NCBI GenBank assembly: GCA_015657535.1
Contig: JADHZB010001695.1
Span: 58,799-122,798, forward strand
DNA from: Nephromyces sp. MM_2019
Taxonomy: Eukaryota; Apicomplexa; Aconoidasida; Nephromycida
Direction: 5' to 3'
DNA: 64,000 nt
Shown one piece after another: positions 1,721 to 62,690 of this stretch. The notes beneath the pieces were generated by a model that had not been told where the DNA came from, made no database searches, and was given only the letters and a program-made list of their open reading frames with translations. Made by a program: the position numbers and the translations under genes. How positions within the stretch are numbered: position 1 is the first letter of the stretch; each line of letters begins with the position of its first letter.

Positions 1721-4700
1721 CTATATTTGAACATTTGAAAAGTGCTCAAAATCACTGTGTTCTATCTGATTTGATCTGAGCCATTGCTTTAAACTAGCTT
1801 TCTCCTTTTCATAATGTAGTCTAGTCTGATTGACATTTGTGTCTGCTTCTGAAAGTGTGTAAATATATATTTAGAATAATCACCATGGAATATTTTATTA
1901 TAGTGCAAGAGTATGTTTATAAAGGGTTTAATAAAATATAACGATACACTGTGGATATGAAATTTTGCGGTGAAAATGTGCAATAGCTTGTGTATTGATC
2001 TATATAAAAGACGTGTGATTCTTGTGTGATTATGTCTATTTGTGTTATTACCATAGGCCCATAATTCAAGATCAATTTTGTCTGGTATAACTCCGAATCT
2101 AGATAAAAAAGCGACTCCATTCTTTTCAATACATGTTGCTTTGAGCCAGTAGAAAACCAGAAATGCCGGAGATTGGCTGCCGTTAAACTCCCTATGCATG
2201 GTTTTCCAATATATGGCGATCCTGGTATTAACAAAGTTTATAGAGTTTTAAAAATTATTAGTAACGACATGTTAATAAAACTTATCAAATCTCTATTGAA
2301 AGTGCTGATTGTTATAAGATGCATATTACAAATAAGATATAATAATACGTATATTGGAATATTTCACATACCATGATCTATCAGAAAGACAATTGGTTTC
2401 TTCGGATAGCCAAAGTGGGTCACCACATTCATTGGACTTTCCCTGTGCCAACAAATCCTTAATAATTTGATCAAATGGTTTTCTCCTGTGTGGTTTATCT
2501 ATTTCAATATATTTAAAACAAGGTTTATCAGGTTCTTCACGTGAGTAAAGAACAATTGCTGATACAAAAGGGACACACACTAAGGCGCCCATTTGGCCAT
2601 CAAAATTAATGAATGGGATTTCAATACCATAGGTTGAAGATTCTTCGAAAGACTCCCACAGCTGTTTTAGTGGAAAATGCCACAAATGGGAGCGATATGA
2701 GGACGGTATAATTGTTGCTGGTGTAGTACCAATAAAGAAAGAATGGAGATTAAAGTTGGGAGGGGTTTTATTTCGATTAAAATTATTCTGGAAATTGTTA
2801 TAAACCTCAACAGAATTTATTTTCTTGGGGAATGGATGATATGACTTAGGTGAATTTATTTCCTTCATGTGGTTATGATTGATGTTATTATAGTCCGCAT
2901 TGTGTAAAATAGAACTCTTGTAGCTTTCCTTTGGTGTTAAATGTAAGCTATCGTTTGGTGGTGGGGGTGGAGGTTGATAATAAAATGCGAGTTTCGATGT
3001 GTTGCCCATCATTTCTGTGTGAGTAGGCTTAATGTAGGGTGTGGTTACTGTAGTGGTATTATAGGTGGTAGCGTTGTATGGGTTATGTGTATATACTGAG
3101 TGTAGGTAAGCTGTCGAGGTTGTATTATTAGTAGTTGAGGTAGGATATATAAATTCTGCTGTTGTTGGATGAGATATAGAGTTGATGTGCGAGGGACTAG
3201 ATGTTGCATACTGATTGACTGAGGCGTTGTGTGGTTTATTAATTGCTGAATTTGAGCTATTTATGGTTGTGTAAGGAGGAGCAGCGGGATATATGTATGC
3301 GGAGTTAGGATTGAAATGAGATTGGTAGATAGTATTATATGGAGGTTGCGAAAAGGAGTTTATATCAGGAGAAGAAATTGAGTCACTAATTGAGTTTTGA
3401 ACAGGTGTTAATTTGAAGAGAGATGTATAGTTATTTTCATTATGTTCATCTAAAGGAGCCTTGTAAGAATGTTCAGGACTCAAGGTATGTGCGGGAGATG
3501 TCAGTGTAGAAAAAGAAGTCATATCAGATGTATTTGCAAATTGGGATGGAGTGTCCGATGATGCATTTTGATTCAATTCGATCGAATTTGTGTTAATGGA
3601 TGTTAAATTTCCGTCATTTTCTTTATCTGGACTCACCTCTGTACAAGTTGAATCAATGGTAGTGTCTGGTTCATTTTTGTCAACATCTTCAACTTCCCTA
3701 TTGTGTGTTGTCATAGTGGGGATAAAACCTTTTAGAGTTTCATCTAATGGCAGCTGATTTTTTATTTTTCGATCAAAAATCACATTTCCATCCAATTTGG
3801 CAGGTGGCATAATTGTAGTTATATTTTCTTCAAGCTCTTCTTTATCAAGACTTTCCTGAATTTTTAAGTGTGTAGATTAGTATAGTGAAAGCGAATCAAC
3901 GTATGGTATATGTAATTTAAATGTGGGTAATTCATATGTTTGAGAAAGGTTATTTTGAGGTAATTGAGTAATGAGTTGAATTTGTCTGTACTTTATCAAA
4001 ATTGTACTGTGTCGCTCGGCTAAAAAACTGTAATAGAAGATTTATAGTGCAATTACCTCATTGGATATAGGCTGGTCAGGTTTATCAAGTTTTAAATTAA
4101 CCGCTGTTCTGCTCAATTTTTGTGTTATTTTATCTAGCAGTAATTTATCAAGAACCCGCGGATTAAAAGGTACAGGGGTAGTAGATGATCTTTTCTCTGT
4201 AATAATACAGGCACAAAATTATTTTAAAGATGAAAGACCATCAGAATGTTCACAAATAAACTTGTTGACATTGAATAGATCTTTAGGAGTAGTTATTATA
4301 ACTAGGTTCATTCTAAAACACGTTACAGATCTATCCAATTAGAAGCACAGTTAATTGTTAGTATAATAAAGGATTAAAATATATATAAATAATTATATAT
4401 ATATTCTTCATAATGGATATGGGATCGTTATTTTTATGCAACAGTACTTAACTACAGATAAATACATACGTAATAAGTATACATTCATCTTATAACCTGT
4501 TGTACGATTGAAACGTATTGAGCGAGTTTCATTCATTTTGCCACTAGGGGGAATTTCCTCTTCATTAAGGTTTTTAACAAGTGTTGGTTTTTCCACTTCA
4601 AAGATAGTGTTAGCTGAGTTAGAAGTGTTTTCCTTGGATTCTGTGTCACTTTCTACGTTAGGATTTTCACTGTTTTCTTTTTCAAAATGCTTCATTATGG

Positions 4701-10309: not shown

Positions 10310-13300
10310 TCAGTTATTTTTTTCTGAGCAATAGTTGATTAATTGGTTGTCGGTATCTATGAGATTTTTAATTTCATAAAGATCAAGGCCTTCTTTGAAA
10401 TTTACAAGTGCGGGTTCATTAAGCTTTACGGAATTGAAGTAATTCTGTATTTCTGGTATCTTATCTTCAAGACGCATAGTAAAGGCACATTCAACAAGCT
10501 GGAAGTTTATGAATAAAAAGTGGTGTATTGGGTTAAAAGTGTACCATTTATACAAATGATGGTTAATGTTTGTAAATTTGCCAAAAAACAAAAATCGAAA
10601 AGAAGGTGACAGAATTTAGCTTTTAAGAGTAAAAAGTTAAGGTGTATTTTTATAGGTGATTTGGGGGCATGTGAAAAATGTCGAAAGGCGTTATGTAAAA
10701 GTATATGACTACATAGAAATGTTTATAAGTAAATCGTTGGGTAGTTAGATGTTGATTATGGCAGTATTCAGCAATCGAGTACTTAAAATAGTCGCATAAT
10801 CACTGTATCAAACAACAAGGTCTATGAACAGGGAATTAGTTTCTTCTAAATATAATACGATACTTACTATGGCATTGTTAGCAAGTCTACCTTTTGTTCG
10901 GAAATGACTAGATAAAGTTTTTGCCCAACTAATTCGAACACTATCGACTTTGTCATAAGAAAGTGATGCTAAGGAAAGTGAGAAGAAGTAATCAAAAAAT
11001 GATTGTGGTAACGTCCTGAAATCAAATGTAGTTGAGAAGTAGTTAAAAGATATTGAATTGTTTAGTTACATATAAATCGATGAGTCTATTCGAGTATTGA
11101 AATATTATAGAGGGTATATGGTCAAAATTAGTGTGTGTCTCGTCCCAATTTAGAGTGTTGCTTATGTATTCGGAAATTAAGTGGTTAGAAATATCTAAAT
11201 GAAAATTATATTTACCTTATAATTTCATCGCACATATATATAAATGATTGTCTCTCAGTGTATATTTCACTCCTGAAAAGTAATTAATGAACTCAAATAA
11301 ATAAATTCTTTTCATAGTTTTTGTAAAACAGCATTCAGTGAGTAATATACTTGTCTTTATCCATGAATAAAAATGCTTATCAACTAAAACCTATTAGAAT
11401 TACCTGAAAAAGTCATTAAGAATCATAAGGATGTAAGTTGTTTCAATACTTCGAGTTTTTGTATCGAGTGCCCTGAGCTTATTTCCATAATGTGAATAGT
11501 AACTGGTCAAATTCTTGTTATTATTTGTATCCTTTTTAGTTGTGTTCTGAAGGTTATTTTCTTTGGTTGGTGTATTTGGGGTTTTATTGCTGGAGCAAGA
11601 TCTCATATCAGGAACACTTTCAGAAGATAAGCTGTGTGGCTGTGTGCTATCATCATCAGGTGTGTTAATTAATGTTTCAACAAATTCGCTGGACTTGCTC
11701 TGATTGTCAGTCAAAGTTAGATGGTCTGTTATCGAAGGGTCCTCAATATATGTTGCAAGCTTGTTTGTGTTTAAGGGGGGTGAGGTATCTAAATTTTCAT
11801 CAGCGTCCTTAGAGCTTTGGATCTCGTTGAGGTGATTATGATTTGGATTATTGCAAGTATCTGAGGCACAGTAGTGATCAATTTCAGTTTGTTGATTAAT
11901 ATTATCGAGTGTATCACTTTTCATATAATAATTGTCATAAAATTGATCTTCATTGTTTAAATTAGATTCAATATTATCTAAGTCATTCTGAGAATTGTCA
12001 GTTGGGTTGTCTGAGTGAGTTATTTCATCGTATTGACTGATCTCAGTACTGATGGAATGTGTTTGTATAGCAGGCTCTTCCTTATGCAAATGTTGATCGT
12101 TATTATTCTCCATAGAGTTGTTAAAACCTGAAAAGTGAGCTAAGATTACTATATGACTAAAATTTAAGATTTGAATTATCTTATACTGACCATTTTCAAT
12201 TGTTGGACAAGAGGTGATTTCATATATACCATCATGGAAATTTATCTTATCAAAGTGTTCTGGTAGGCCATTCAGTTTAGAATTCGAGTAGTCTAGCGAG
12301 TTAAATATCGTTTCAGTGCTAAAGGAATCTGTGATACTCTTCTGCATAAATTCTGTATAAAAATTGAACAAAAGGAACAATTAGGTAATTGTGATAAAGA
12401 TTATTTGAAGCTTGGAAGTTTCTCAATGAATCGGAAATTTTTATTACCTTCGAGTTCAAAATGATTTGATTCAGGATTTTCTGTGGTATAGATTTCTATC
12501 ATTGAACGATTGATCTCAAAGCTTGAAAAAGTTTCATTTACATACTTTTCTCTGGATTGGTTATCCTTTCGAGAAGTGTTTTTTACATTGAAAGCATTGA
12601 GTTTATACTCATTTTTAATATTGCTCTGTTCTATTGGTGGTTTCATAGCTGAGTTGATTGTTGGGTCAGGGGTGTGGCTTTCTGTGCTATTTTCTTCATC
12701 ATGAGCAAATGAGATTAACTGGGGGCAGCAATGAGACAAAAAGCTGGGGATAGACTGTATAGCTTTACGCCTAACTTCAAAAATGGCGTCCTTACATAGG
12801 CTTAATGTAAGGGGTAGTAATAAATTGATTGAAGAGCCATAAATAGGCTGCTCCCAAAAGTTCTCAAGCTGTTCGGAGATTTCATAACGAATTCTCCAAT
12901 TGAAATCAGAATTATGTTTTATTTGACCTAGATCCTGAATTATTTCTTCAATTTTAGATGGGTGGAATACCTTAAGATAGTATTTGAGGTTGCGTAAGAT
13001 GTTTATTTTTACAGCAACTTCTTCATCAAGGAGTAGCTTCTTGAAAATGTGATAAAATTGAATTTGTGTAGTTGTGTCATTTTCATTAGCTTCATCGAAT
13101 TTAATTGAGTTGAAAGTGCTAATAACAATACGGTGAAAAGATTTTGCTAGCTCTTCTCTAATATTAGAAACTTCATAATTGTGAAGAAATAAAAGAGTAG
13201 CTTGTAGATGATGCCAAGCTTTATCCTCTAAAATCTCCCATAAAGGAGCAAGAAAACGAGCAAAAGATAAATAGAGGGAAGGCACACTATCTAGTTCATA

Positions 13301-14344
13301 TGGTTCTTCATAGTGCTCAATTTGAAAATGGTCTCGTTCTATGATTTGATTAAAATCCTCTACTTTGTAAGAAGAGTTTGGAAAATTGACTAATTTTGTT
13401 AATAGTTTTATATCAATAGCTTCTTTATTGCTTAAAGATACAAAAAATTCTCCCAGAATCTTCATGGATAAATACTGTATGCTATTAACCGAATCAGATA
13501 AAAAGTTTTTCATGATAGGGAGAAATTTTTCTCTTTCTTCTATTGGGCTAGACCTTATAAGGGCTGGTAAATGAATAACTGCCGATTTACGCACTCTAAA
13601 ATCATAATCTTCACAAAATTTTATATAGAAAGGATGTATCCTAGATACAACATTGTCGAAGCCTATAACGTTGCAGATGTTTTGTAAATTGCCGGCCACG
13701 GACATGCGGACTAATGGATCAGAGTCCTCAGCTAGACATCGGACTTGGGGGACAAAAAATGATAGACACACTTCATCCCCAACTGTCTCAGCCAAACCAT
13801 CTAAAAGGTAACTAGCAAGGCACTTTGTATTTTGAGAGTTTGGTCCATTAGCCATTTTTAGTGCTAAGGTAATTATAGGTTGATTTCCCATTTGTCTTAG
13901 GTGGGCTGATAGAAAAAACAGGGATTGACAAGCAGATTTTCGTACCATCCAATCTTGGTCATCTATCAGTTTCTCTATTATTGGTAGGAGGGAAGTGATT
14001 GATTGCTTTACACCCTCCTCGGGGTTTTGCTGAATAAGAAATCCAGCAATGCCGCCAATTTGGTTACATATTGACTTTCTAATGGGTGGAGATTTATCGT
14101 TTGCTAGGTTAGATGCAATTGGTAAAATATTTTTAACGAAAGAAGAATAACCAATTTCATAGGCGCTTTCAAGCAGTGACTTGGCTAAAACCAAACGTTG
14201 AAATTCCAACGGGCTCTTGTAAATCTTTTGGGCCTTCTTAACTGGATCCTTGATTTCATTAGAAGAAAAGAGAGAAAAAATATTAGAGTATGCAAATGCC
14301 TTCTTGGGTAAAACCTCGAGGATTTGGTCCAGGCTTGCAGACAT
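10310..14344 (-). CDS. PPP4R1: PPP4R1-like HEAT-repeat regulatory subunit of protein phosphatase 4 (~1058 aa)
   Basis: Six exons: 14344-12448, 12352-12191, 12127-11404, 11272-11216, 11015-10868 and 10498-10310, with stop at 10310-10312. All phases agree. The first ~560 residues are HEAT repeats with the PP2A-A/PPP4R1 pattern: 'DKSPPIRKSICNQI', 'DDQDWMVRKSACQSL', 'EDSDPLVRMSVAGNL' and 'EDYDFRVRKSAVIHL'. In other eukaryotes PPP4R1 is a scaffold that binds the PP4 catalytic subunit in the cytosol and nucleus. An Asn/Asp/Ser/Thr-rich linker of about 230 residues (exon 3, roughly residues 688-927) separates the HEAT domain from a conserved-looking helical C-terminus ('SEIYTERQSFIYMCDEII', 'DKVDSVRISWAKTL'). 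The 63-base intron 12190-12128 has length divisible by three and no stop, so its retention would add 21 residues. A PP2A scaffold identity is the main alternative; the length and C-terminal extension favour PPP4R1. Confidence 0.82.
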
Positions 14345-17044
14345 TGGTGTTAATAAAAGTTCTATATGAAATAAAAGAGCTTCTCTGTTAAGTAGAAGGA
14401 GGAGGTTTCGTCAATTTTTATAACCTTTCCATTCATCAATAACTAGAGATTTATTCACATAATAATTTATTGCGATTTTCACGGGGGTTGTTTGAATGGA
14501 GAGTACCAGTAGTGTTGTGGAATTGTGAGTTATAGAGATTTGTATAATCTTCCTAATTACTGTCTAAGTTGCGCTTTTGTGTAGTACATTCTTATATGGC
14601 TTAAGTGCATCTTCACCTAATCGAGAATAGTCCCAATCGCATTATTTATTGCTTAGAGGTTTGCAATAGGGTGTCTGTGTGAATTAGGATTGAATCTTAA
14701 GTCTCGAGAAACAAAAAAACATAAGAATGGAGCTTAAAAGCAACTGATTTTAATGTCAGTTTTGCTATATTTATTCTGGCTTTTCACGAGCAACCGTTAT
14801 TAACTTAGAGACAAATTACAAATACTTGAGTGCCATAGAGGCAAATTGCAAGAAAATTGGGGGTGGGATTTGAAAATTCTCAGGCTATAGGATGAGAAGT
14901 AAAAAAAAGTAGAAAGCCACTAAAAAAATTTTATTTTTAATTAAAGGTGTAAAACTTTCAATTGTTGAAGGTGTAGACGGGGTGAACTCAAATGTTGTAA
15001 ATGTAATTGTTACATTTTGGGCAAGCACAGTTTGCCTAGCCGTGAGTGATTGAAAGTGTATATAGTGGGGATAGGCGCGTAAACGAGTAGGGATTTGTTT
15101 TAAGGAAAATTTAATAATGACTGTAATGCAACTCCTTGATATGCGAAAGCACATTGATAAGAGAGTGTTCAACTATTGGTGTCAGTGATGATGGATAGTG
15201 GGTGTGAACAAGTGTCAGTAAGGGTTTGTGTGGGTCTAAATACGTATGGAAAATTGGATGACTGCGTGCAAATGTATGGTTGGGTAGCATAGAATGGGTG
15301 TTAGATAAATGTGTGTACCTAGTTGTAGGTGATATGAAAGTGTGCTTTAGCTAGGAGTTGTTTGGTGGGTGTCATTTTGGTGAAATGTGTGCAAACAACC
15401 GTGGTGTAAGCTTCCAAGTTTGGCGATTAGTCTACTAACGCTATCCAATGGCTAGTGAAGATAATTAAATACTTAATAAGACGAAGTTAATAAATAAATT
15501 GGTTTGTTTATGTGAAAAATTAATACTTGTTGAGAGCTTGTTTGAGAGTTTGTTTTTAAAGATGATTCATGTGTCCCCATTTAAGTAACAGAGGAAGGAT
15601 GATATTGCCTAAGACTTTAAGTAAATTTCTTTTTTAATCTTAGGGAATTTTAAGCAGTATTATGCTAATAATGTTTTTAATGGATTTATATTAGTACTAT
15701 TTAGGATATAATTAATTAAGCATAAAGAATTTATATAAATATACAGATTTTTACCTATTCTTAGCTCGATATATGTATCCTAGTATCCTATCCTTATTTT
15801 AGAGCTAATTCACATGCTTTGTCCTTGAGTTTTAGTATGAATTATTTTTTATAATGTGTATGAGATGCATATATGTTATGTATAATGCCCATCTGCAACA
15901 TCTACTGTTTCTTATAGACTTTTAAATAATTAATGTTTCATGTAAATTGATGTATGGTTCCAAGTTTGTAGATGAAAGTTCGTCTATCCACATAATTGGG
16001 TTTCTGTTCTTCGTAAAACGAAAGCTTTGATAATTTGACCCTGTAGGTCAAACAGATTGAAATCATATGACTAATGGGCTATAAACGTTCTATCATCTTT
16101 TTGTTTTTAAGTGCAATAGTATTAACGAAGTTTTGAGAAACGACTGTTTTTTTAACAATTTAGCTCGTCTTAAATTTTTTAATGCTTTTTACAAATTTTT
16201 ATCAAGTAACTTTTGAAAATTGTAGTTTACTTAATTTAACTTTGTTGTTGATGCAAGAATAATGACCTGTTGTGGAAGCTTAACAAATAATATAAGTTAA
16301 ATGTGTATATGCATATATATATTTATTTATATATATTTGAATATAAACAAGAGACCAAATGCACCAATGACCAGCTCTAAATTTATTATACATAGATTTA
16401 GTAATAGTAAAATTTCTCTAAACAAAGAACTATTTGCTCTAAACTATAGATAATCGAATTGAAAATTGATTTGTAAGTTGAATAACCAAGTAGACTAATA
16501 TTGAGTATAACGAGTTTCTAAAAATTGTTTTTATAAAATATCGATTTGATGGATTCTATTGAGAAAAATATTCATGAGAGTATACGTAATAATTATGTCT
16601 AAATAGTTTACTCTTTACTGAATATATCTGTTCTTGGCCATGATCATTGCTAAGGCAAAATTTTGTATCTATACTTACACACCTGAAGAAATATGCAAAC
16701 ATGCAAATTGAAATAAAGGTATGTAGGATTGTCATGTAATGTCAGTAAGCTTCAGCTTGTGAAAAAAGTCAATAAAAAAAGTGGATTATTTTAACTAATT
16801 TTACATGTCAAATTAGATGAGACGCTTCTAATAGTAAAAATGTGTGTTTATAGATGATGATCAAAGCAATACAAGTGTTCTATAAATAGAATCTGGGTAG
16901 TAGCATTAAAAATTAAAGCTTTAAAAAAAGTCTTCTAAGGAGTTTGTGCGTAATATTTACAAATTTTAAAAAATGGTTGTAATCTTTTGTGTAATTAGGC
17001 GCAAAATTATCAAAGTCAATATGCTAAATTTTTGCTTTTAACAA
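14345..17044. other. Intergenic, 2.7 kb
   Basis: AT-rich with a T/G-rich section at about 15180-15420. Minus-strand open stretches such as 14885-15172 lack recognisable motifs and are treated as chance. Confidence 0.45.
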
Positions 17045-20199: not shown

Positions 20200-23100
20200 T
20201 TAAGCCACATTTGAAAAGGCATAGTTCATTGAGCTATTATTGAAAATAGATTTGTGGTCTAGAAAAATTAAAAAAGGACCTTAAAGAAATATTTAAAAAA
20301 GAAAAATAAGAGCTCAAAATATTCCACAACCACCAGTAGTGACATACCAGTCCATAGGCCTAGTTGACCACCGATAGAAGCTAATAAAAATATGGTGCAT
20401 TAATTATCAATGTTAAAGGTATGAGCCATTTAAATATTGCAAATTTTTATGAAACTTAGCTAAATTATTAATACTATAATCAAATATAACCTTTAGAGCA
20501 ACTGATAGCTTAAAAAACGTGTATGAAAACTCAAATTTCAGGTTAAACATGATATATATTGAAATTTTGAATTGTATATGCTTCCTTCGACTTTAAGTTA
20601 TATGAAATTTTAGCAGACTATGAAAATAATCAAATTATCGAAAATTCCCGAATTTTGATGTAATTTCATATTCTTATATGACTCACATATCAAACCAGTT
20701 ATGGTTTGTTTTAAATTAACCCTTTCAATATATGGCCTTCTATAACGATCAATTGAAATTTCTATAAGGCTGTTTTGAAATGAATCGCGCTCAGAGTTAA
20801 ATGTATTAATTTCATCAATTAATGGCCTGCAGAATAAAAAACACTTTAGGGTGAGTAGGGTGAATTAGACGTATTTTTCTTTTTAAGAATAAAGCTAAAA
20901 ATGTATCAAGGGCTTTGATAAACAAACACATTGAACATATAAACAATTAGCATTACATAAATGAATTAGAGTAAGTTGATCCTTTTTGCCATATTGGGTA
21001 CTGAGAAAAGTCAATTTCGAAAATTTTTGTTTTGCAGGGTGGACCACAATCATCACCACATTTTTTAATTGCCTCAAAAATTGAGCAGCCTAGTTCCTCT
21101 GAGTAAGTAGTTTTGGTAGTTAAAGTTCAACTATATTTATTGTTTGATAGTTTAAATGCTTGTACATATTCGAGACTCTTTTTTATAATGTATGCTTTTG
21201 TGCAAAATTCCTTTTCACATCTTTATGACATTTAAACATATTATTCGTGTTTTATTGAACGTATATTTACATACCTTGAAACGCATTACACTTTGAGATG
21301 TGATATTGAAGGTTATCATGTTTATAAGGTAACTGAGATTCCAGATTAGATAAACTGTATGGATTTCGCAGGATAAATTTAATTTACAAAATTTTTTAGT
21401 AATGTATGAAAATTTTTAACTTATGATAAAATACTTCATTGGGTTTGAATAGACACAATAAGCTAATTTGTCTTGTTTATAAATTTCGAAATTTAATTTT
21501 GGTTATAAAAGAGTATTTGCAAATAATATTGAATTTCTTACTCTATCCCACAGCAGTTCTCTGCATATTGGCGTAAGTAGCAAATTGAGTAGCAATCCTG
21601 AAGGTATGTCAAATGAGTCTAAAGGCATATAAACGAACAGTGTTGAGTGTACATGAACAACCAGTAAATATTATTCATTCCTCATTAGTATGTTATATCT
21701 GCATGTGTATTCACATAGACATTTACTTTACAAGGGATATATGTGGTAGGTTCACAAATTCATAAATTTTTATTAAGTTATATCCACATGAATCAACACG
21801 AAAACACCTCCTGTGGAATGGTAATGTTGTTGTAGCATCCTCCATAGCTTTCTGTTTCATCCTCTTGATAAATCTCTCTAATCTTTATCCTACAAAGTGT
21901 ATTTCCAGTGCATATTTGATAGTCTTGGGCCCATGAAATTGAATGATCCCTAAATAAAACCAATAGGTGATAAACTCAACTTTCAAATTGATATTAGTAA
22001 ATTATCGGAATTCGATAATTCATAGTCTAATGCAAGTTATATTAGTGATTTTCCACAAATTGTGCACAATTTTATAGGTCCTTTACTTTTTCAAGCTTTT
22101 GAAAATTTGTAAAAACTTAAGAAATATACGACCTCATTGTAAGTTATGCATGAGAGTTTCTTTTCAAATTTTCTCTGATAATAAAACAAGTAAAATTACC
22201 AATCAAATATACGTATGGCTGAGCCAGCCCAATTTCTTGGATGAAGTTGAGTCACTGAGTCTCTTGATTCTAAGTTTGGGTTGTAGTAAACCTGTGAGGC
22301 TAGTTCTAACCACATTAGGGTTGGTGACACAGTTAACTTTCTACAAATATGTGAATAAGATAAGGATTTGTATTATATACATACATATATACCTTTAATA
22401 AGTTCGACCAAATAGTAAAAAGTCTATATAGTGTGTGTAAAGATTGTGTAAATTTAAACTTTGTACTAAATTATCCAGACTCCTTTATGGAATCTACTTA
22501 AATTCTAATAAAACAGTGCCTAAGAATAACAATTGTTTTATGTTTGAGCATGTTATTTAAAAAGGTGATATCTAGTCACTAAGCTCCAATACAACATATG
22601 TTTCATATATATATATAATTTACTCAAAAAAGTGACAAAAACCACTATTATTAATCTAAATTCAAACCTAACTTAACACTAGGAACATAGAAATGTATAT
22701 TAAATCCTACAGTATTTACATATCATTTCTTTTAAAGAATTCATTATTTGCGTTAAAAATCCCGCATATACCAAACTCTGGAACAACGATTTCCTTCCAA
22801 TACTCCTTGCTCCTACAGTCGACATTTCGATCCGAATTGATTAAGAAATTACAGTTCAACAAAGTTGGAAGTCTTTCTGGTTGTGCACCGGGGGTAATTC
22901 CAATTTGATTATCATTTACAAACTCGAAGCCACCATAAGCCATTATCTTAGAACACAGCATTAACAATACATATTTACTTATAGGTGTAATTGTATGGGT
23001 CTTTAATTAACACAAATTGAAAATTTTGTTGCAAAAGGCAGCAAGTACAGTCACTTCCATTCTGTTTATTCACATTAGTTTACTTCTAAAGGCTTTAATA

Positions 23101-25013
23101 GTTTTAATTAATTTGCCTAAATTCTTTGAAATACTTGCCTCATCATAGGAGATATATAATGGTAGACCATTATCATAATGCTCAATAATTTTGGTTTTTA
23201 TTGCATTTCCTTTATCTTCATTGCAAGGATGAATGTATAACCTATTATACTCAGCTGAAAAACAAAACATATAGTGCACTTTTTAAGGCTTGGTTAGACG
23301 GTGAGACTAGTCAAGCTTTAAAAAAATCATGCTAAGTAAGAGTAATGCTAAAAATTTGGCAATAAATCATGCTGGAGATTTAAAGGAACTCTTATATATC
23401 CTTAAAGTCTTACTGTTAATCGTTGCAACTGTTGTAGAAATACAGCGAAATGGTGCTAAAAGTTCGGGTGACCTGGATTCTATCTCTGCATCATACCTAT
23501 TAACATTTTGAATCGTTAGTGACTAAACAAACTGTATTAATTTTTGGTATCTTTGTGATATATTCATTGTACTAAAATAGAGTTTCTCAAATTCATACTC
23601 AAAGCGCTCAAATTAAACTCAAACCTTACACTAATTCTTCTAACCTCACTTATCTAAAATTTATATGCCATTTGAGAGCTAAGTTTAACGAGAGCTTGGT
23701 GCATTTTTTGAGTTTGCATCAATCTCCAAGCTAGTTAAGTGATCAAACTTACCATAAGGAACATCCACAGTCTAGAGGAGTTGATGGGCAAACTGTTATA
23801 GAAAAATTAAAGACTTCAATGGGTAAAAATGACTTTGTTGTCACTCTCTGAAATGTCAAATAGTCGATAATTTCAGCGTAAATTAAGTATATGAATATCC
23901 CCACTGCGATGAAAAACAACAAAAGCCAAAACAATTTCCGTTGAAAAGTGTTGTGACCATCAAAAAATCTAGTAATTCCTGTTAAAGTTTAGCATTAGCA
24001 CGCTTTTTAATTATTCATTACGGCTGCAAGCACTGAATATGATAATATTGCCTAAAAACCACGCACTACTACGTGCTGGTATTATGCTATTTAGTTTACC
24101 TAGTTAGGTTGCGTGTGTATCTATTTTAATAATTTATGTATCAAGTTTAACAACACGCATAGAATAATTCTGCTTGCTTGCTTCTAGCGCGTTAGCATAT
24201 GTATCTAGAATCGTATTGTTTACGAGTGTATATATATGTTTATTTCTGCATCACTGATAATACAAGTGCCTAGTATAATTGTGTCTCTGATTTAACAATG
24301 TGTCTATCCTTTGTAATAATGTCTATATCTATTTTAGTGTGTTTTAGCTTGCAATTGTTTTGGGGCTAGTTGAGACTATGGGTGCAGCAATAGTGGTTAC
24401 TATATATATTCATTTTTCATTACATTTTTAATGTTTGTAATCTGGGTATGACACAGTAACTAGAGCTTTACATTTGATTAAGTTGCGTAAAGTATATCGA
24501 CATGCACGCATTTTCACTTTTGAATGCAATATTTTAGAATATACTCGAACTAAATTTAAAAAAAAATCACTTCATATTCATTACATTTTATACAAATCCA
24601 CGTGAACACAGCCGGTTGGTAAAATCAAATACATCATATACATCTACACTATGTTGTGAACACAAAAAATCACGAAATGGATAGATTGGTTTTGTTCGCA
24701 CAAGCATTTAATAAGAAAATCACAATAAATAATAATATATACCAACATTGAATACACTAGCCCATATAAATATAATTTTTATTCAAATTTTACCATCTTG
24801 TTGTGATGAATAATCACCCTTGTAAAAGGAGTAAAAGAAGTTATGAACACTTTTTCCGTACGTTTCACTCAAAGGCCCACCCCAAAGCCTAAACCTTCTA
24901 ATTTTTTTTTTAGGTCTTGGCTCGTCTTTTTGATTTGATTCAGTTTGATTTTTATCTTCGTTTTCTTTACTCTTTACCTCTAAAGAGTCGTTATTTTTTC
25001 TATTTTCAGACAT
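20200..25013 (-). CDS. DEG/ENaC (ASC) family ion channel subunit (~555 aa, 14 exons)
   Basis: Exons: 25013-24794, 23978-23753, 23496-23414, 23254-23139, 23061-23014, 22946-22720, 22340-22200, 21949-21808, 21597-21542, 21290-21275, 21096-20957, 20826-20687, 20380-20348 and 20279-20200 (TAA 20202-20200). All phases agree. DEG/ENaC subunits form trimeric, usually amiloride-sensitive cation channels with two TM helices and a large Cys-rich ectodomain. Visible here are a charged cytosolic N-terminus; 'DGITRFF' (family 'HGi') before TM1 (about 89-110, 'KLFWLLLFFIAVGIFIYLIY'); the post-TM1 'FNFSITVCP' (family 'FPavTiC'); about 22 Cys; 'LLNC' and later 'PEFGICGIFN' (family 'yG.CytFN'); 'CGPPCKTKIFEIDFS' (family 'C.ppC....Y....S'); and the pre-TM2/TM2 block 'LISSIGGQLGLWTGPF'. 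Oddities: DG instead of HG, the pore tract G-P-F instead of G-x-S, a 16-base microexon, and one intron with a GC donor (23138-23062). Exons 4-5 and 10 have the weakest borders. Confidence 0.82.
23062..23138 (-). other. GC-AG intron in the DEG/ENaC-like gene
   Basis: Exon 4 ends ATGAG and the intron begins GCAAGT, the classic GC-donor consensus. Every GT donor I found in this exon is in the wrong phase (1 or 2). The GC donor restores phase 0 into the Cys-rich exon 'NGSDCTCC'. Confidence 0.55.
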
Positions 25014-25862: not shown

Positions 25863-27330
25863 TCAATTAAGCCTATTTTCATCACAAGCTGAAAATGGTG
25901 AAAAAATCTCAAAAGAAAATGAGATTTTCGTTCTCCATCTGTGAGAAAGTGATATCCAGTGCATTATTCTTAGCCAATCCCTTAATTTTTCCCACATAAA
26001 TGGTTCACCGTGGTATCTGAGAAAATTTTATTCAAAGATTGTATGCATATACAAGTGTTTATATTTGGCTGATTTACTTTGTGAAAAGGCAGTTCTTAAA
26101 CATAAGATAGTGTTTTAAAATATATGAAGGTAGTGGGTAAGGTGTAAGGGGACTGTTAAATAATATGTAAAAATAAAGTAGGCCATACTATATAATGTGT
26201 GTTAAGTATAAAAGGTGAGCTGTAAAGTTAATGTCTAGGCTGAAAATATAAGGGCTCGTGTGCTTAAATAAAAAATTGGCTTAAGTGTCTAAGTTAACAG
26301 TTAAATGAAATATATCTATACTTACTTAACAATACGATCGATAAGATTCGTTTTTTGTTTAAATATGGATAGCTTTGACAGCCTTGAAAAATTTCGGAAT
26401 TTTCCGTAACCAACAAAGTAGAGAGTTGGATATTCACTAACTTCCAACTCATCACACAGTGCTTTGTGTTCAGCATTCAGTTTGCAATTAAATTGAGTTA
26501 TAAGTAATGAATTCGCATCCCTTGACTCGAAAAATCGTGCTAATTGGTCACACAGTGCTACCATATGTCTGAGAAGAAGAAATTTATGTTTAAAAATGGA
26601 ATTTGATTAGTTATGGTAAATATTTATATTTATTAGGAAAATTGAATCATTCGAAGTGTATTGTCAATGTTTCGGGTCACAAAATTCAATGATTAAAAAG
26701 AATTAATAGTGGTAAGTAAGATTATAAAAATAGTGTGAGCAAATACATTAGTGATAGATAAGCCCGTATGTATGTATGAGCTCGTGTATGTTTACGCTTG
26801 TAGCTTTTATGTATGTGCTTATATGCCTATCCTTATATACATGTATAATTAGGTTGTGCTTGCTTATCTATATATATATATAAATATATAGGTCCAGGTG
26901 TATTTATATGTGTGTACCTATAAAAAGAGCCAAAGGGTGAATAAAAATGAATCAGGAGGTCATTTTCCCATTTATTCAGGTGTCGTTTTAGATCTGATGC
27001 CGATAATTCAATAGTATTGATACCAGCTTTATTCGAACTTAGTTGATTAAGATCTAAAGTGTGAAATATCAGAGATGGTTAAATAAGGTTTGCATTTAAG
27101 TTATGAAAAATGTCTATATGGATTTGTGAATATGTTTAAATTTGTGTAAATTATAAGTTTGGACAGTGTATAGCGATGTTTGGTGGTTGATTTAAGCGGA
27201 TTAAAAGCTGTGGGCGAAATGTTTAATTTATTATCATGTTTTTACCTCCTACTGCTGAAACATATAAGGATTTGTTCAAAATGAGATGAATGAAAAAGTA
27301 TATCAAGATAATCTTGAATTGTAGCCACAT
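25863..27330 (-). CDS. Secreted/ER thioredoxin-fold protein lacking the CXXC site (~205 aa)
   Basis: Five exons: 27330-27246, 27053-26918, 26568-26326 and 26016-25863 (four coding blocks in the core model; the last ends at TGA 25865-25863), all in phase. Exon 1 encodes a signal peptide: 'MWLQFKIILIYFFIHLIL' then a polar stretch. Exon 2 ends with 'NDLLIHFYSPFGSF', the beta-strand that normally leads to the CxxC active site ('..v.FyapWCghC'); here the position reads SPFGSF with no cysteine. Exon 3 carries the second half of the fold: 'FNCKLNAEHKALCDELEV' and 'SEYPTLYFVGYGKF', the conserved cis-Pro strand of PDI/thioredoxin domains. The tail 'YHGEPFMWEKLRDWLR' follows. The protein is therefore PDI-like but probably redox-inactive, acting as a chaperone or binding domain (inference). 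No KDEL-type signal is visible. The 3' end is the least certain part. Confidence 0.7.
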
Positions 27331-28164: not shown

Positions 28165-29913
28165 TCATTCATTCTCTTCTATATCATTTTCTCTGTGTCT
28201 CATATCACATGTAAAAGGTATTATGACTATACCAGGCTTCCCATTAGCATTGATCCATCTTCCAAGCCTTTGCTCCTTTCCTATAGCTAAATATAAACTT
28301 CCATGGTATTTGGACCCTACTAAGGACCCATGAACTTGGATTTGAGAAACACACCCTTCAACAGAAATCCTTTGTTTTGTTAGTTCAACTAAAATAGTTG
28401 ACTTTTTCTTTGGTGATTCTTCAATTCGATGAGCCCACCAGAACTTTATATAGCCATCATAGCTACCCGATATTAAAAGATCTGAATTAGGAATGGCGGA
28501 TAATGCTGTGATCCATCCATTGTGTGCCTTAAGCTGTGTAAAGAGTGGTTTACGATTATTAAAATTCCATAGCGTTATTGTTCCTTCTTGATTACCAGTT
28601 ACAAAATACTGCTTATTTAGCATTGTACAGGTGTCAATTGGGCATAGTGGGTGCTTAAAAATAAAGTGCGTTTCTTCTCGAATCTGATATGAAGGAATTT
28701 AATTGAGAAGTGATGTGAAATTGGTTTGTGATTAATTAGAATATCGGTTCTAAAGAGTAGATGATGTATTTTCTCATTTCTTAAGAAAAGTTTTTATATA
28801 TATGGGTAACTATTTCCATTAATGGTTTACTAGATTGAAAGATTCGTAAAATCTTGATCTAAAATCAAATTTTATTGTGTTTTAATAAATTACCTTCCAT
28901 AAACGCGCGCTTCCATCTTCAGCAACCGTAAGTGGGCGATTATTGGTTGAAATGTCAACAGATAGAATGCCACCAGTGTGGCCGTAAAGCGTATTTATGT
29001 AGGAAAGAGTGCGTAGGCTCCAAAGTTTTACCGTGTTATCAAGAGAAGTTGTGATAAGTTGATCAAATTCTGAACGTGGTTCGGCAATTATACCAGTAAT
29101 GGAGCCACGATGACCTAAAAGCGAAGGTTTAAATATGAAAGTTAATAGAAGAAAGACTTTATGCTAGAAATTGAGGTGTTAACCTTTAAGTGTAGCAATG
29201 AGCCCGCTTTTAGAGCCCAAAAGTCTACAGTCCCAAACATGAATAACATTATCAGTTCCGCCAGAGCACAATAGATGTTGAAATTCCTCAATACCACAAC
29301 ATAGTGATAAGATATCTTTGGTAGGTCCATATTCAGGGTTTGTGGCCTTTTCTATGCAAACTAATTTTCGATTGGCATTTAGATCCCATCGGATTATCGA
29401 ACTATCCTTCGCTGCCGAATAGAGGATATCGGTTTGAGGCTGATTTTGGTAGTGTGGAGGAATAGCGATGGAAGTTGCTGAAGCTTTATGACCTCTTTTA
29501 AAAACATTTGGCTGAAATTCAATGCTACCTATGTTACTCAGGGTAGGGATGTTGGAATATGATTGGGGAGGATCAAGAATTGGTGTATAAAAGCTAGGAG
29601 GCAATGCCTCCGAAATATCTCCTGAGGGAGCATCTTCATCAAGCAAACCAAGGTCTTCAAGGTAATTCTTGGCTACACGAAGCCGCCTCTCTTCTGCTGG
29701 TAAATCTAAGAAATCATCATCATCTTCATTATCTTTCATTCCGTTCGAAGGCCCTTCTTTAGCCAAGAAGTCTCCACTTTTTTTATTTGTGAATACTTGA
29801 TCATCATCATCGGATGAAAGAATCTCTTCATCCCAATTTGTAGGCTTTTTAGATTTTCTTTCAGTACCTTCCCTACCTCGCTTAGGAGGTGCTAGTTTAC
29901 GTTTACTTGACAT
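28165..29913 (-). CDS. RRP9: U3 snoRNP WD40 protein RRP9 (U3-55K) (~489 aa)
   Basis: Three exons: 29913-29184, 29114-28894 and 28683-28165, in phase. The N-terminus is basic and acidic ('KRKLAPPKRGREG', then an Asp-rich run), typical of a nucleolar protein. Next comes 'EERRLRVAKNYLEDLGLL', the RRP9 signature ('qekRlRlAK.YLe.l') before the propeller. WD40 blades follow: 'AKDSSIIRWDL', 'SGGTDNVIHVWD', 'GHRGSITGI', 'TSLDNTVKLWSLRTLSYI', 'AEDGSARLW', 'TGNQEGTITLW' and 'SGSYDGYIKFWWA'. The C-terminal 'LAIGKEQRLGRW' matches the RRP9 'G.EhRLGRWw' blade. RRP9 binds U3 snoRNA within the SSU processome and is needed for 18S rRNA maturation in the nucleolus. Length and motif order fit the family well. 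Confidence 0.92.
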
Positions 29914-30850
29914 TGAGAAGATATAGTAATCAGTAATTGCTATATCGAATTTAGTTTCTGTCTTAATTTCTACTCCAGTACAGCCTAGTTAGAACTTGTA
30001 ACTAATCATTTATTAATAAGTTGACATTTAAATCCGACCTATCTAGAACATTTATGTAACTATTCATCTTGCTGGCTCTATCAAAGTGTGTTGTCTAGTT
30101 TGTGATTTGTACTGAAACTTGCTTTCCAATTTTGCTTGGTTTTGACTTCTTGCCTAAATTTAATTCAAATTTTAAAATTTTCTTAACTCTAGTGTGATTT
30201 TATAATTATGGGTCAAAGGCAAGAACAAAAGGCTTATTTTAAAATGTTTAAATTAAAGCATTTGTTTTTTTCTAAAAAATCCAAGATACTTTTTACTAAC
30301 AATAGTTTACTTTTATGCTTGTATGCATTTTAGAGTCACGCCTCATTCGTGTAGTATATTTCTAACCTTGAATTCTATTTAGTCAAGGAATATAATTGAG
30401 CTAGAATAAACTATATATAAGTTAGTTACCTATGTGTGACCTCTTAATCATTTAAATATTGAAAAAAATTATCATATTATTTTTTGAATTATTTTAGCTA
30501 TTACATCCTTTTTAAAGAATGAATGGAGAAAAATAAGTGTAAAGTATTTTAAGAAATCAGTTGCTTATAATATCCGATTCAAATAATTTTGTTACAATGC
30601 TATTATAGTAATTCAAACAAGTTCTAATCTTGTAAATTGATCAGCAAAAAATTATAAATGTCATCATATAATGAATTCATTTAATAATATTTAAGAGATA
30701 TGTGTTGTAGCCGGTTGGATTTACTTGCAGTGGTATTGGATAGCTTAAATATTTAATTAAAAACTAACCAAAGAGCCTATTAAAAAATCATTCTGATAGA
30801 ACTAGTTAAACCCATTGTTCGTAAACTAATTGAGACTCTTGTAAAGTTCC
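29914..30850. other. Intergenic, 0.94 kb
   Basis: AT-rich spacer between tandem minus-strand genes; nothing recognised. It would hold the RRP9 promoter and the 3' flank of the large helical-protein gene. Confidence 0.5.
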
Positions 30851-59060: not shown

Positions 59061-59801
59061 TAAGTACACACTGAATCATTCAAACCTTGCTTTGAAACAC
59101 ATATAAACCAAACATAATGTGCAACTAATTATTTTAAACACATATACACATACCCTTGTATAATTTATGATTACACATTTAATTTAGACACCTTATTTTT
59201 ACACAACCAAATAATGTGACACACAACACACACTTTATATAGCACCACACACACACACCAAACATTATCATCCTACCCTCTCACACCTATTATGAATACA
59301 CAATCCAGTACATACAATTTCACATCACACATTATATATATTTATTTATAATTACTATGTATAATCACTGTGTGTAAATACGAATGCTGTATGTAACTAT
59401 AATTACTATGTGTAAAAATTTGTTTGTAAACAAAAAAAATAATATTGTGTACATACATATATAGTATATCTAATCAATGTGTGCAAATATAAATAGTATA
59501 TCAAATCAATGTGTACATGCATATATAGTATATCAAATCAATGTGTGCAAATATAAACAGTGTGTAAATAAGTAATGTATATATACATATATACATTCTG
59601 TGTGTACACTGTATACATAAATTATGCACATAATTGTATCCATAAATACTGTGTGTAACTAATAATCGTTTATAGATATCTTATCTATCCATACACATAC
59701 ATATAACCCCTCTACATAACAACCGCAACACATCCTACATCATATATATATATATATAAATGTGTGTGTGTGTGTGTAAAAAATATAGACAGCTAATCAG
59801 C

Positions 59802-60668
59802 ATGCAAAATGAATATATTGGACAAGTATTAACAAGTAGTATTGTAGCAGGTACACTCGTTGGATGTGTAACTACACCCTTCGATGTAGTTAAAAATTAT
59901 TGGCAGTTTAACGCCACTTTGGCAAAAAATCGAACATCCACAAACACTTTCAACATAATTACACACTTATACCAAATAAATGGTTTGAGAACCTTTTGGA
60001 CAGGTACTGTGTGCGTGTGTGTGTAGGGAGAGTATACATGTAGAGGTGTGTATGTGTGTGTATTTCTATACGCACACATTCAAACACATTCTATCACACC
60101 CACATATCAACATATCTACACACATTCAAACACACATATTCATACACATTCAAACAAATTTATCCATACACATTTTCACACACATTTTCACACACATATC
60201 CACACTCCCACAAATCAACATATCTACACTCCCACAATTTAATATATCTACACACCCATACACACAAACACACACCCACACACCTATACATACCTACACA
60301 CCCACACACCTATACACACCTACATACATACACACCTATACATACCTACACACACGCACACCTATACATACCTACACACACGCACACCTATACATACCTA
60401 CACACCCACACACCTATACATACCTACACACACGTACACCTATACATACCTACACACACGCACACCTATATATGTATACACACACACAGGTATTGGACCT
60501 GCATTGGGTGTAATTATACCTTCAAATATTATATTTTTTTCACTGTTTGAGCGAATGAGTAAAAATGATAGGCCATTTTGGGCGAGTGTGAAAGCTAGGG
60601 CTGTTGCTGTAACAATTATTTCCCCCATTGAATATCTTAGAACAAATTTACAGGCTAATATTGGTAAG

Positions 60669-60705
<37 letters not shown>

Positions 60706-62418
60706 TCACCTTATAAGGTGCTATTTCTAAATTTACACACATGCAATATATAAACACATGTGATTTGTAAAGGGGATGGTGATAGGAGGAGGAGGAGGTG
60801 TGTGTAGTCTGTATGGGAGATAGGTGGTTTAAGAATTTGTATAGGGATAGTGGTGTGTCTATGTGTATGTATATGTGTGTGTGTATGTATGTGTGTATGT
60901 GTGTGCGTGTTTAATTGTATGTGTAGGTATGTGTTTAATTGTATGTGTAGGTATGTGTTTAATTGTATGTGTAGGTATGTGTTTAATTGTATGTGTGTGT
61001 ATGTGTTTAATTGTATGTGTGTGTATGTGTTTAATTGTATGTGTAGGTATGTGTTTAATTGTATGTGTGTGTATTGTCTATGTTTAGAGATATGAATATA
61101 TAGGTTTAGAGGTATATATAATTCATTGTAGAGATATTGTGTGTAGGTATAAATTTTTTACACATCTTTATATTTATTTACACACACTTTTAATATGATT
61201 ATATATACTTATTAGGCTCTACTGATGCACGCACACTCATACATAAGGCTATGCAAGAAGAAGGCCTAATTTCATTTTGGAGAGGTGTAATTCCCTCACT
61301 AATCAGAGATGCACCTTTTTCTGCTATATATTGGGAGTTAAATGCACTCGGATTAGAGATGTTAGAAAGGTGTGTGTGTGTGTGTATATATATGTGTGTA
61401 TGTGTGTATATATATGTGTGTGTGTATATGTGTATGTGTGTATATGTATGTGTGTAAGTTTAGATATGTGTGTGTGTTTATATATATGTGTGTGTATGTG
61501 TGTGTGTATGTGTATATATGTGGGTATATATATATGTGTGTGTATGTGTATATATATGTATGTGTATATATATATGTGTGTGTATGTGTATATATATGTA
61601 TGTGTATATATATATGTGTGTGTATGTGTATATATATGTATGTGTATATATATGTATTTGTATATATATGTGTGTGTATGTGTATATATATGTATGTGTA
61701 TATATATGTATGTGTATATATATGTATGTGTATATATATGTATGTGTATATATATGTATGTGTATATATATATATGTGTATATACATGTGCACATATATA
61801 ACATTGATTTATATATAAATGCATATATATTTATTTCGATACACACACATGTGTACTTAAAGTATGGAAATTAGAGGATATGTGTGAAATTTAAGGGTTT
61901 GTGTGAACCTTCTTTTGGCTAAATATCTTACATAATTTTTCACACATCGTACCCCTCAAAAATATGTGTATATACACACACACACTTGTTTATTTTCCCC
62001 CTTTAGTTATGACCATAATTATCGTAAACGCTCAAATATGTTATCCAACTTTATCTACCCTTTTACGGTTGCTGGAATTTCGGGCGGTATAGCCAGTGTA
62101 CTTACACACCCATTTGATGTTATTAAAACAAATATGCAGGTAAATAATTAATTACACACACACACATATATATACACACATTCCTACATATACGAACGCT
62201 CATACATCTCTATACATCCCTACACACATGATTACACACACATAAAATATATACCTATTCTATATATATATATATATATATAGAAATATTTAATACATAC
62301 ATATATATAAACATATATGTATACATCCACCAATACAATTCATATGCACTTTCCCAACTATATCTACCTACAACACCTTCCGATATATATATATATATAT
62401 ACAATTCACCTAAACAAA

Positions 62419-62477
<59 letters not shown>

Positions 62478-62690
62478 GCAGCAGAATATATACACAAAGC
62501 AAGAGGATTTGTATTTGTTAAGAAAGAAGGATCTACACACATAATTAAACGAATTTTTAGAAATGAGGGTTTGGCTGGTTTCTTTGTGGGTATATTCCCA
62601 CGGACTGCAAAACTCATCCCTTCCAGTGCAATTTTATTAGGGACATATGAATTTACAAAAGCGTTCATTAATCAGCCTTCTACAAATTAA
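59802..62690 (+). CDS. SLC25A39/40 (Mtm1)-type mitochondrial carrier (~291 aa)
   Basis: Five exons: 59802-60003, 60490-60663, 61216-61369, 62007-62139 and 62478-62690 (TAA 62688-62690), all in phase. Three carrier signatures are present: '[11 protein letters not shown]', '[11 protein letters not shown]' and '[11 protein letters not shown]'. Matches specific to the SLC25A39/40/Mtm1 subfamily are '[13 protein letters not shown]', '[20 protein letters not shown]' with 'AIYW', and '[20 protein letters not shown]' with 'LGTYEF'. In animals SLC25A39/40 import glutathione into mitochondria; yeast Mtm1 is linked to Mn/Fe homeostasis. The protein would sit in the inner mitochondrial membrane with six TM helices. 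The first matrix loop contains no cysteine, whereas mammalian SLC25A39 has regulatory cysteines there. ATG 59802 is chosen because the frame upstream is only TG-repeat. All four introns are filled with TG, CA or TA repeats. Confidence 0.9.
60245..60489. repeat. 26-bp tandem CA-rich repeat inside carrier intron 1
   Basis: A unit close to CACACCTATACATACCTACA plus ACACG recurs about seven times between 60280 and 60470, directly upstream of the exon-2 acceptor at 60489. Strand bias is C/A on the coding strand. Confidence 0.85.
60667..60702. repeat. (AT)n microsatellite at the start of carrier intron 2
   Basis: A run of alternating A and T begins within ten bases of the 5' splice site at 60664. 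Confidence 0.85.
60907..61075. repeat. Seven copies of a 24-bp unit in carrier intron 2
   Basis: The unit TTTAATTGTATGTGTAGGTA plus TGTG starts at 60910 and recurs exactly every 24 bases, seven times; some copies read GTGTGTAT in place of GTAGGTAT. Because 24 is divisible by three, two plus-strand frames stay open and mimic a Cys/Val-rich protein. Confidence 0.9.
61370..61800. repeat. TATATG/TGTG compound microsatellite filling carrier intron 3
   Basis: Blocks of TGTGTGTATGTGTATATATATG alternate for over 400 bases from the very first base of the intron. All six frames stay open for long stretches, which makes several false ORFs on both strands. Confidence 0.9.
62421..62477. repeat. (TG)n run ending at the acceptor of carrier intron 4
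   Basis: An uninterrupted TG run of about 26 repeats ends TGTAG at 62477, the 3' splice site itself. There is no conventional pyrimidine tract. Confidence 0.9.

Follow-up and report, generated by a model that had tools for sequence, protein, structure and literature searches.

A divergent DEG/ENaC-type channel gene of twelve predicted exons in a probable nephromycid apicomplexan

The locus and its channel gene

The window analysed here, a stretch of 64,000 nucleotides, covers bases 58799-122798 of contig C877; the assembly comprises 48.28 Mb in 1127 contigs. On the minus strand of the window, at 20268-25013, lies a gene for a channel protein of the DEG/ENaC family (ASC, PF00858), recognized from a spliced model and its match to the family profile. 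We consider it highly likely that this is an intact, one-copy gene of a nephromycid-type apicomplexan, encoding a divergent DEG/ENaC channel. An earlier note on the same DNA had described a DEG/ENaC gene with two transmembrane segments (TM1 and TM2); we recovered it on the minus strand, with the sequence blocks quoted there in the order claimed.

The gene model is a prediction, obtained by chaining exons on the minus strand through splice signals and reading phase. It opens with an ATG at 25013, closes with a TAA finishing at 20268, and joins 12 in-phase exons into 568 amino acids without an internal stop; the earlier note was right that its exons are in phase and wrong in counting fourteen of them. 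The introns measure 130-815 nt, ten of the eleven having GT-AG borders and one GC-AG.

Exon 1 (24794..25013, residues 1-74) carries the start codon and a charged cytosolic N-terminal tail, and exon 2 (23753..23978, residues 74-149), placed by PF00858, supplies the G of a DG that replaces the HG motif, TM1 and the post-TM1 motif FNFSITVCP. The extracellular domain begins with exon 3 (23414..23496, residues 149-177), which was placed by phase and GT-AG borders only, and continues through exon 4 (23139..23254, residues 177-215), followed by the GC-AG intron, exon 5 (22720..22946, residues 216-291), with the series NCNF...DC...GICGIFN, exon 6 (22200..22340, residues 291-338) and exon 7 (21808..21949, residues 338-385). 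Exon 8 (21542..21618, residues 386-411) bears the thumb cysteines C-x3-C-x8-C; after exon 9 (21275..21354, residues 411-438), exon 10 (20957..21098, residues 438-485) holds the ELGC...C...CGPPC block and exon 11 (20687..20826, residues 485-532) the strand before TM2. Exon 12 (20268..20380), again placed by PF00858, encodes SSIGGQLGLWTGMS, TM2 with the filter position G-M-S (residues 543-545) and the stop. The borders of exons 3-10 were predicted from phase and splice signals, with modest support from the family profile, and these exons are less secure than exons 2, 11 and 12.

A further candidate, at 22979-23061, was left out, because the chain of 13 exons that includes it loses the reading frame and requires an intron of 32 nt. 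The stretch itself lies on the minus strand within the intron after exon 4, is open and has splice-like borders (NGSDCTCCLLQQNF...); it is possibly an alternative exon, despite the frame break in the model chosen.

Hydropathy revealed only two hydrophobic stretches in the protein, near residues 84-116 and 538-564, which gives two TMs around a cysteine-bearing domain of ~420 residues, with short ends that are presumably cytosolic. The cysteines number 20, rather than the roughly 22 announced earlier. FNFSITVCP occupies residues 130-138, GICGIFN 274-280, DCYSICYLRQYAENCC 393-408 and ELGC...CGPPC 439-459, with CGPPC beginning at C455; SSIGGQLGLWTG starts at residue 532, and SSIGGQLGLWTGMS spans 532-545. 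The GGQ block and the G-x-S filter in TM2 (IGGQLGLWTGMS) align with IGGQMGLFIGAS of ASIC1, the filter position reading G-M-S in the channel and G-A-S in ASIC1.

Family membership and the extracellular domain

The earlier note had proposed a search of the spliced protein against PF00858. This search gave 86.7 bits (curated cut-off 23.6) and an E-value of 2.2e-24, which excludes a chance match; residues 74-555 aligned to model positions 9-455 of 455, that is, to 447 of the 455. An intron-blind search of the whole genome (48.3 Mb) with the same profile returned two sites, both of them exons of the channel gene, corresponding to profile positions 2-78 (TM1 region) and 430-455 (TM2). When the spliced protein itself was searched against the genome at E up to 1, with only the best candidates scored, all 12 matches fell inside the channel gene, and for this reason we speak of one copy seen.

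Among solved structures, 26 distinct PDB sequences matched at E up to 1. Twenty-three of them are named FaNaC, ASIC or ENaC, counting 'amiloride-sensitive cation channel 2' as ASIC, and the other three are named 'Broad-range thermal receptor 1', a protein that ASIC1 matches as well and that we take to be a DEG/ENaC member. The best E-values were 5.3e-7 for FaNaC1, 3.4e-6 for ASIC5, 5.5e-5 for the thermal receptor, 7.4e-4 for ASIC1 and 4.4e-3 for ENaC. BRTNaC1 and PDPNaC1 were considered as possible protist relatives and set aside, since titles and abstracts in the literature place both in myriapods.

Subfamily models matched well below their own cut-offs, the ENaC model TIGR00859 with 40.2 bits (E 1.5e-10) against a cut-off of 428 and the degenerin model TIGR00867 with 29.4 bits (E 3.8e-7) against 598.45. 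Judged by its sequence, the protein belongs to the DEG/ENaC superfamily and to neither of the two subfamilies tested. In a four-sequence alignment with human ENaC-gamma, ENaC-beta and ASIC1, its identity to them was 23.2%, 22.7% and 24.1%, respectively, while ENaC-gamma and ASIC1 shared 27.8%. The cysteine columns common to all four in this alignment include the post-TM1 C, a C...C pair before GxC, GxC itself, the thumb C-x3-C-x8-C and a late C...C...C.

Homologue searches of a protein database at E up to 10 yielded no relative of the whole protein among 2563 candidates and none of residues 400-568 among 245. Both searches are word-based, and since they require shared words of five residues, distant relatives would be missed. 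In viral contigs, 133 pattern matches contained no relative by tblastn.

Within the protein, most of the PF00858 signal lies in the TM1 and TM2 regions: exons 1-2 alone reached 32.4 bits (E 6.8e-8) and exons 11-12 alone 35.7 bits (E 6.9e-9). With the real extracellular middle in place the profile gave 85.9 bits in a single end-to-end stretch, a result obtained with none of six altered middles (five shuffled and one reversed), which scored 43.6-62.2 bits.

Several observations weigh against reading the locus as an intact gene of this family. The extracellular part alone, searched with the HMMER filters on, did not match PF00858 at E up to 10. We also built our own extracellular-domain model from three animal sequences, and after bias correction the middle scored -5.0, lower than its own reverse (-2.9); at least as high as the real middle were 1546 shuffles (2000 made, 1623 reported) or, with the cysteines fixed, 1488 (2000 made, 1869 reported). 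Codon usage did not separate the exons from the introns of the channel gene. Further, one cysteine present in all three references, after a Y and before the late thumb, is missing, and the HG motif reads D73-G74, with His replaced by Asp, the Gly kept and the G74 codon divided by the first intron. The HG motif before TM1 is a hallmark of DEG/ENaC proteins and matters for gating in animals. Since the motif reads DG, gating may differ, and we lowered our certainty on gating accordingly; membership was retained because the profile still matches there.

Uncorrected, the three-sequence model weakly favours placing the middle in the family: the middle scored 8.0 and its reverse -1.3, and the real score was reached by 2 of 2000 shuffles, or by 32 of 2000 when the cysteine positions were fixed. 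Pairwise global scores of the middle stood at z 1.5, 1.4 and 2.8 (0.8, 0.6 and 1.6 with cysteines fixed), where ASIC1 against ENaC-gamma gives z 15.9. From the shuffles and pairwise scores it follows that the extracellular domain is very divergent, and that cysteine spacing is part of its signal.

The carrier organism and the neighbouring genes

The taxonomic anchor of the locus is a gene for RRP9 (U3-55k), composed of three exon-bearing open reading frames (ORFs) at 28168..29988, ~3 kb upstream of the channel gene and on the same strand. Its best match was Cardiosporidium cionae (361 bits, 41% identity over 86%), with the runner-up at 186 bits (best 120 of 190 proteins), and among four relatives compared the string EDGxARLWKVREETHFxFKHP, which covers an exon junction set by eye before the search, was shared by the RRP9 of the window and that of C. 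cionae only. Across the assembly we counted 64 AP2 domain matches at E up to 0.001, in keeping with the AP2 expansion of apicomplexans. Uricase was found on three contigs, C548, C1090 and C1018, the last of which bears AP2 too. These results bear out the RRP9 neighbour and apicomplexan affinity that had been assigned to the locus.

Uricase has been reported in Nephromyces and Cardiosporidium, and these likely relatives of our organism inhabit tunicates (PMC6320678, excerpts). The carrier resembles C. cionae and Nephromyces in its RRP9, closest to that of C. cionae, and in uricase, and is most likely a nephromycid apicomplexan other than C. cionae, RRP9 being the conserved gene used for this placement. 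The word-based searches found no channel homologue from C. cionae in the protein database, which contains at least one protein of that species. As its assembly is 63.7% complete (PMC7737231, excerpts), the missing homologue weighs little either way. The uricase copies differ in structure, that on C548 lying in a single frame (a 364-aa open frame) and those on C1090 and C1018 giving split matches, a contrast that may point to separate origins.

A thioredoxin-like neighbour, also claimed earlier, was not confirmed, as Pfam gave no match at E 0.01 for either of two ORFs within 26325-27078. Elsewhere in the window, in which the channel and RRP9 genes are split by introns, a long single-frame HEAT-repeat protein of 668 aa occupies 12401-14407 on the minus strand, and its best solved relatives are the PP2A scaffold subunit A (2.2e-23). 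A DUF789 domain (PF05623, E 1.9e-11) is encoded at 2329-3876 (minus strand), after a long N-terminal part rich in few residues; DUF789 is known mainly from plants. At 59760-62687 on the plus strand lies a mitochondrial carrier gene, with PF00153 found in both pieces tested and with CA/TA-type repeats that appear to occupy much of the stretches between pieces.

Origin, proposed function and comparison with known channels

DEG/ENaC is described as a metazoan family. Outside animals, a 2023 study records members from Cafeteria, a stramenopile, and Tunicaraptor, a filasterean relative, and its methods name candidates from one alveolate, Symbiodinium sp. KB8; the choice between loss and lateral transfer is left undecided there (PMC10507113, excerpts). 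These records agree with the remark in the earlier note that the family is mainly animal with scattered unicellular reports. According to excerpts of a 2013 survey, every pathogenic protozoan examined, apicomplexans included, was without DEG/ENaC (PMC3681921), and among the matches listed for open-licence literature we found no report of an apicomplexan member. Because candidates from Symbiodinium KB8 and a stramenopile had already been reported, we regard the channel as a new branch and not as the first outside animals. Either the family predates animals or the channel gene was acquired long ago, and we leave this choice undecided.

We give not quite an even chance to ancient vertical retention, by which the family predates animals and persists in a few lineages of SAR (stramenopiles, alveolates and Rhizaria), the present one among them, after many losses. 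The candidates in Symbiodinium KB8, Cafeteria and Tunicaraptor argue for it (PMC10507113), as do the strong divergence of the protein from every solved animal subfamily matched and the position of an intron-rich gene next to an apicomplexan one; it requires many independent losses, however, and no further apicomplexan member was found in our searches. A transfer of the gene from an animal host in the distant past, with local intron gain and divergence afterwards, is a serious possibility that we hold tentatively. The family has many members in animals and patchy reports elsewhere, transfer is one of the two options that the authors of the 2023 study offer (PMC10507113), likely relatives live in tunicates (PMC6320678), the protozoa surveyed in 2013 had none (PMC3681921), and the database with at least one C. 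cionae protein held no channel match. Against transfer, neither word-based search found an animal relative in a database that contains animals, the identity to ENaC-gamma, ENaC-beta and ASIC1 is an even 22.7-24.1%, the matches to solved structures and to the subfamily models lean strongly to no one subfamily, and the gene has eleven introns and a third-position GC like that of its neighbours.

It is very improbable that the locus is a pseudogene, or that its exons were strung together by chance around genuine TM remnants: the middle, unmatched alone and poor in the small animal model, would fit such a reading, but the 12 stop-free exons with splice borders and the single continuous family match, which no scrambled middle reproduced, speak against it. 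Even less probable is contamination, that is, a chimeric contig with a host gene fused to apicomplexan DNA; genomes of this kind derive from host tissue, and in the C. cionae data most classified contigs above 1 kb were tunicate before binning (PMC7737231, excerpts), but the channel gene, with a third-position GC of 0.309, is close to two neighbours (0.305 and 0.28), an apicomplexan RRP9 lies nearby on the same strand, and no close animal protein appeared at E up to 10 in a database where a gene newly come from a host should presumably have near relatives. The assembly had no match to the homeodomain or to the nuclear-receptor zinc finger zf-C4, a result that does not demonstrate absence because the control genomes gave no match either. 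The earlier note had argued against contamination, and we likewise found no sign of it, with tests that are not decisive.

Reading the locus as an intact channel gene, and by analogy with the family, we are strongly inclined to assign its product a cation channel function. It would with good likelihood form a homotrimer, which we propose because no gene for a second subunit was found, and is probably selective for Na+. For gating by a proton or ligand, rather than constitutive or purely mechanical opening, we see an even chance. In the mechanism that the family suggests, three copies would assemble in the plasma membrane into a pore that selects small monovalent cations and opens on an extracellular cue (our guess, in order, being proton, peptide and shear); Na+ would then flow in down its gradient from the sea-squirt body fluid, a depolarising influx that would act as a signal. 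The nearest solved channels include, by their deposited names, peptide-gated and proton-gated ones (FaNaC1, ASIC), which for so distant a protein is weak guidance. A fuller scenario, in which the last ancestor shared by SAR and animals already had DEG/ENaC and this nephromycid has kept its own copy to sense host body fluid by fast Na+ signalling, seems to us doubtful; the matches listed for open-licence literature contained no report of fast Na+ signalling for apicomplexans. The channel makes Na+-based sensing a question to be asked of this group, where a specialist would not expect DEG/ENaC, and an intron-rich copy in native apicomplexan surroundings offers a further data point on the age of the family, or on the passage of a gene from host to parasite.

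With FaNaC1, ASIC5, ASIC1 and ENaC the protein shares two TMs, the post-TM1 [IV]-T-[IVL]-C, the thumb C-x3-C-x8-C, the GGQ block and G-x-S. It differs from the ENaC and ASIC1 references by the D for H in the HG motif, by the absence of one reference cysteine and by its apicomplexan carrier, and the extra extracellular stretch of ENaC is a gap in the channel. The family members or candidates described from Cafeteria, Tunicaraptor and Symbiodinium KB8 (PMC10507113, excerpts) are likewise non-animal, one of them from an alveolate, and belong to lineages other than the apicomplexan that carries this channel.

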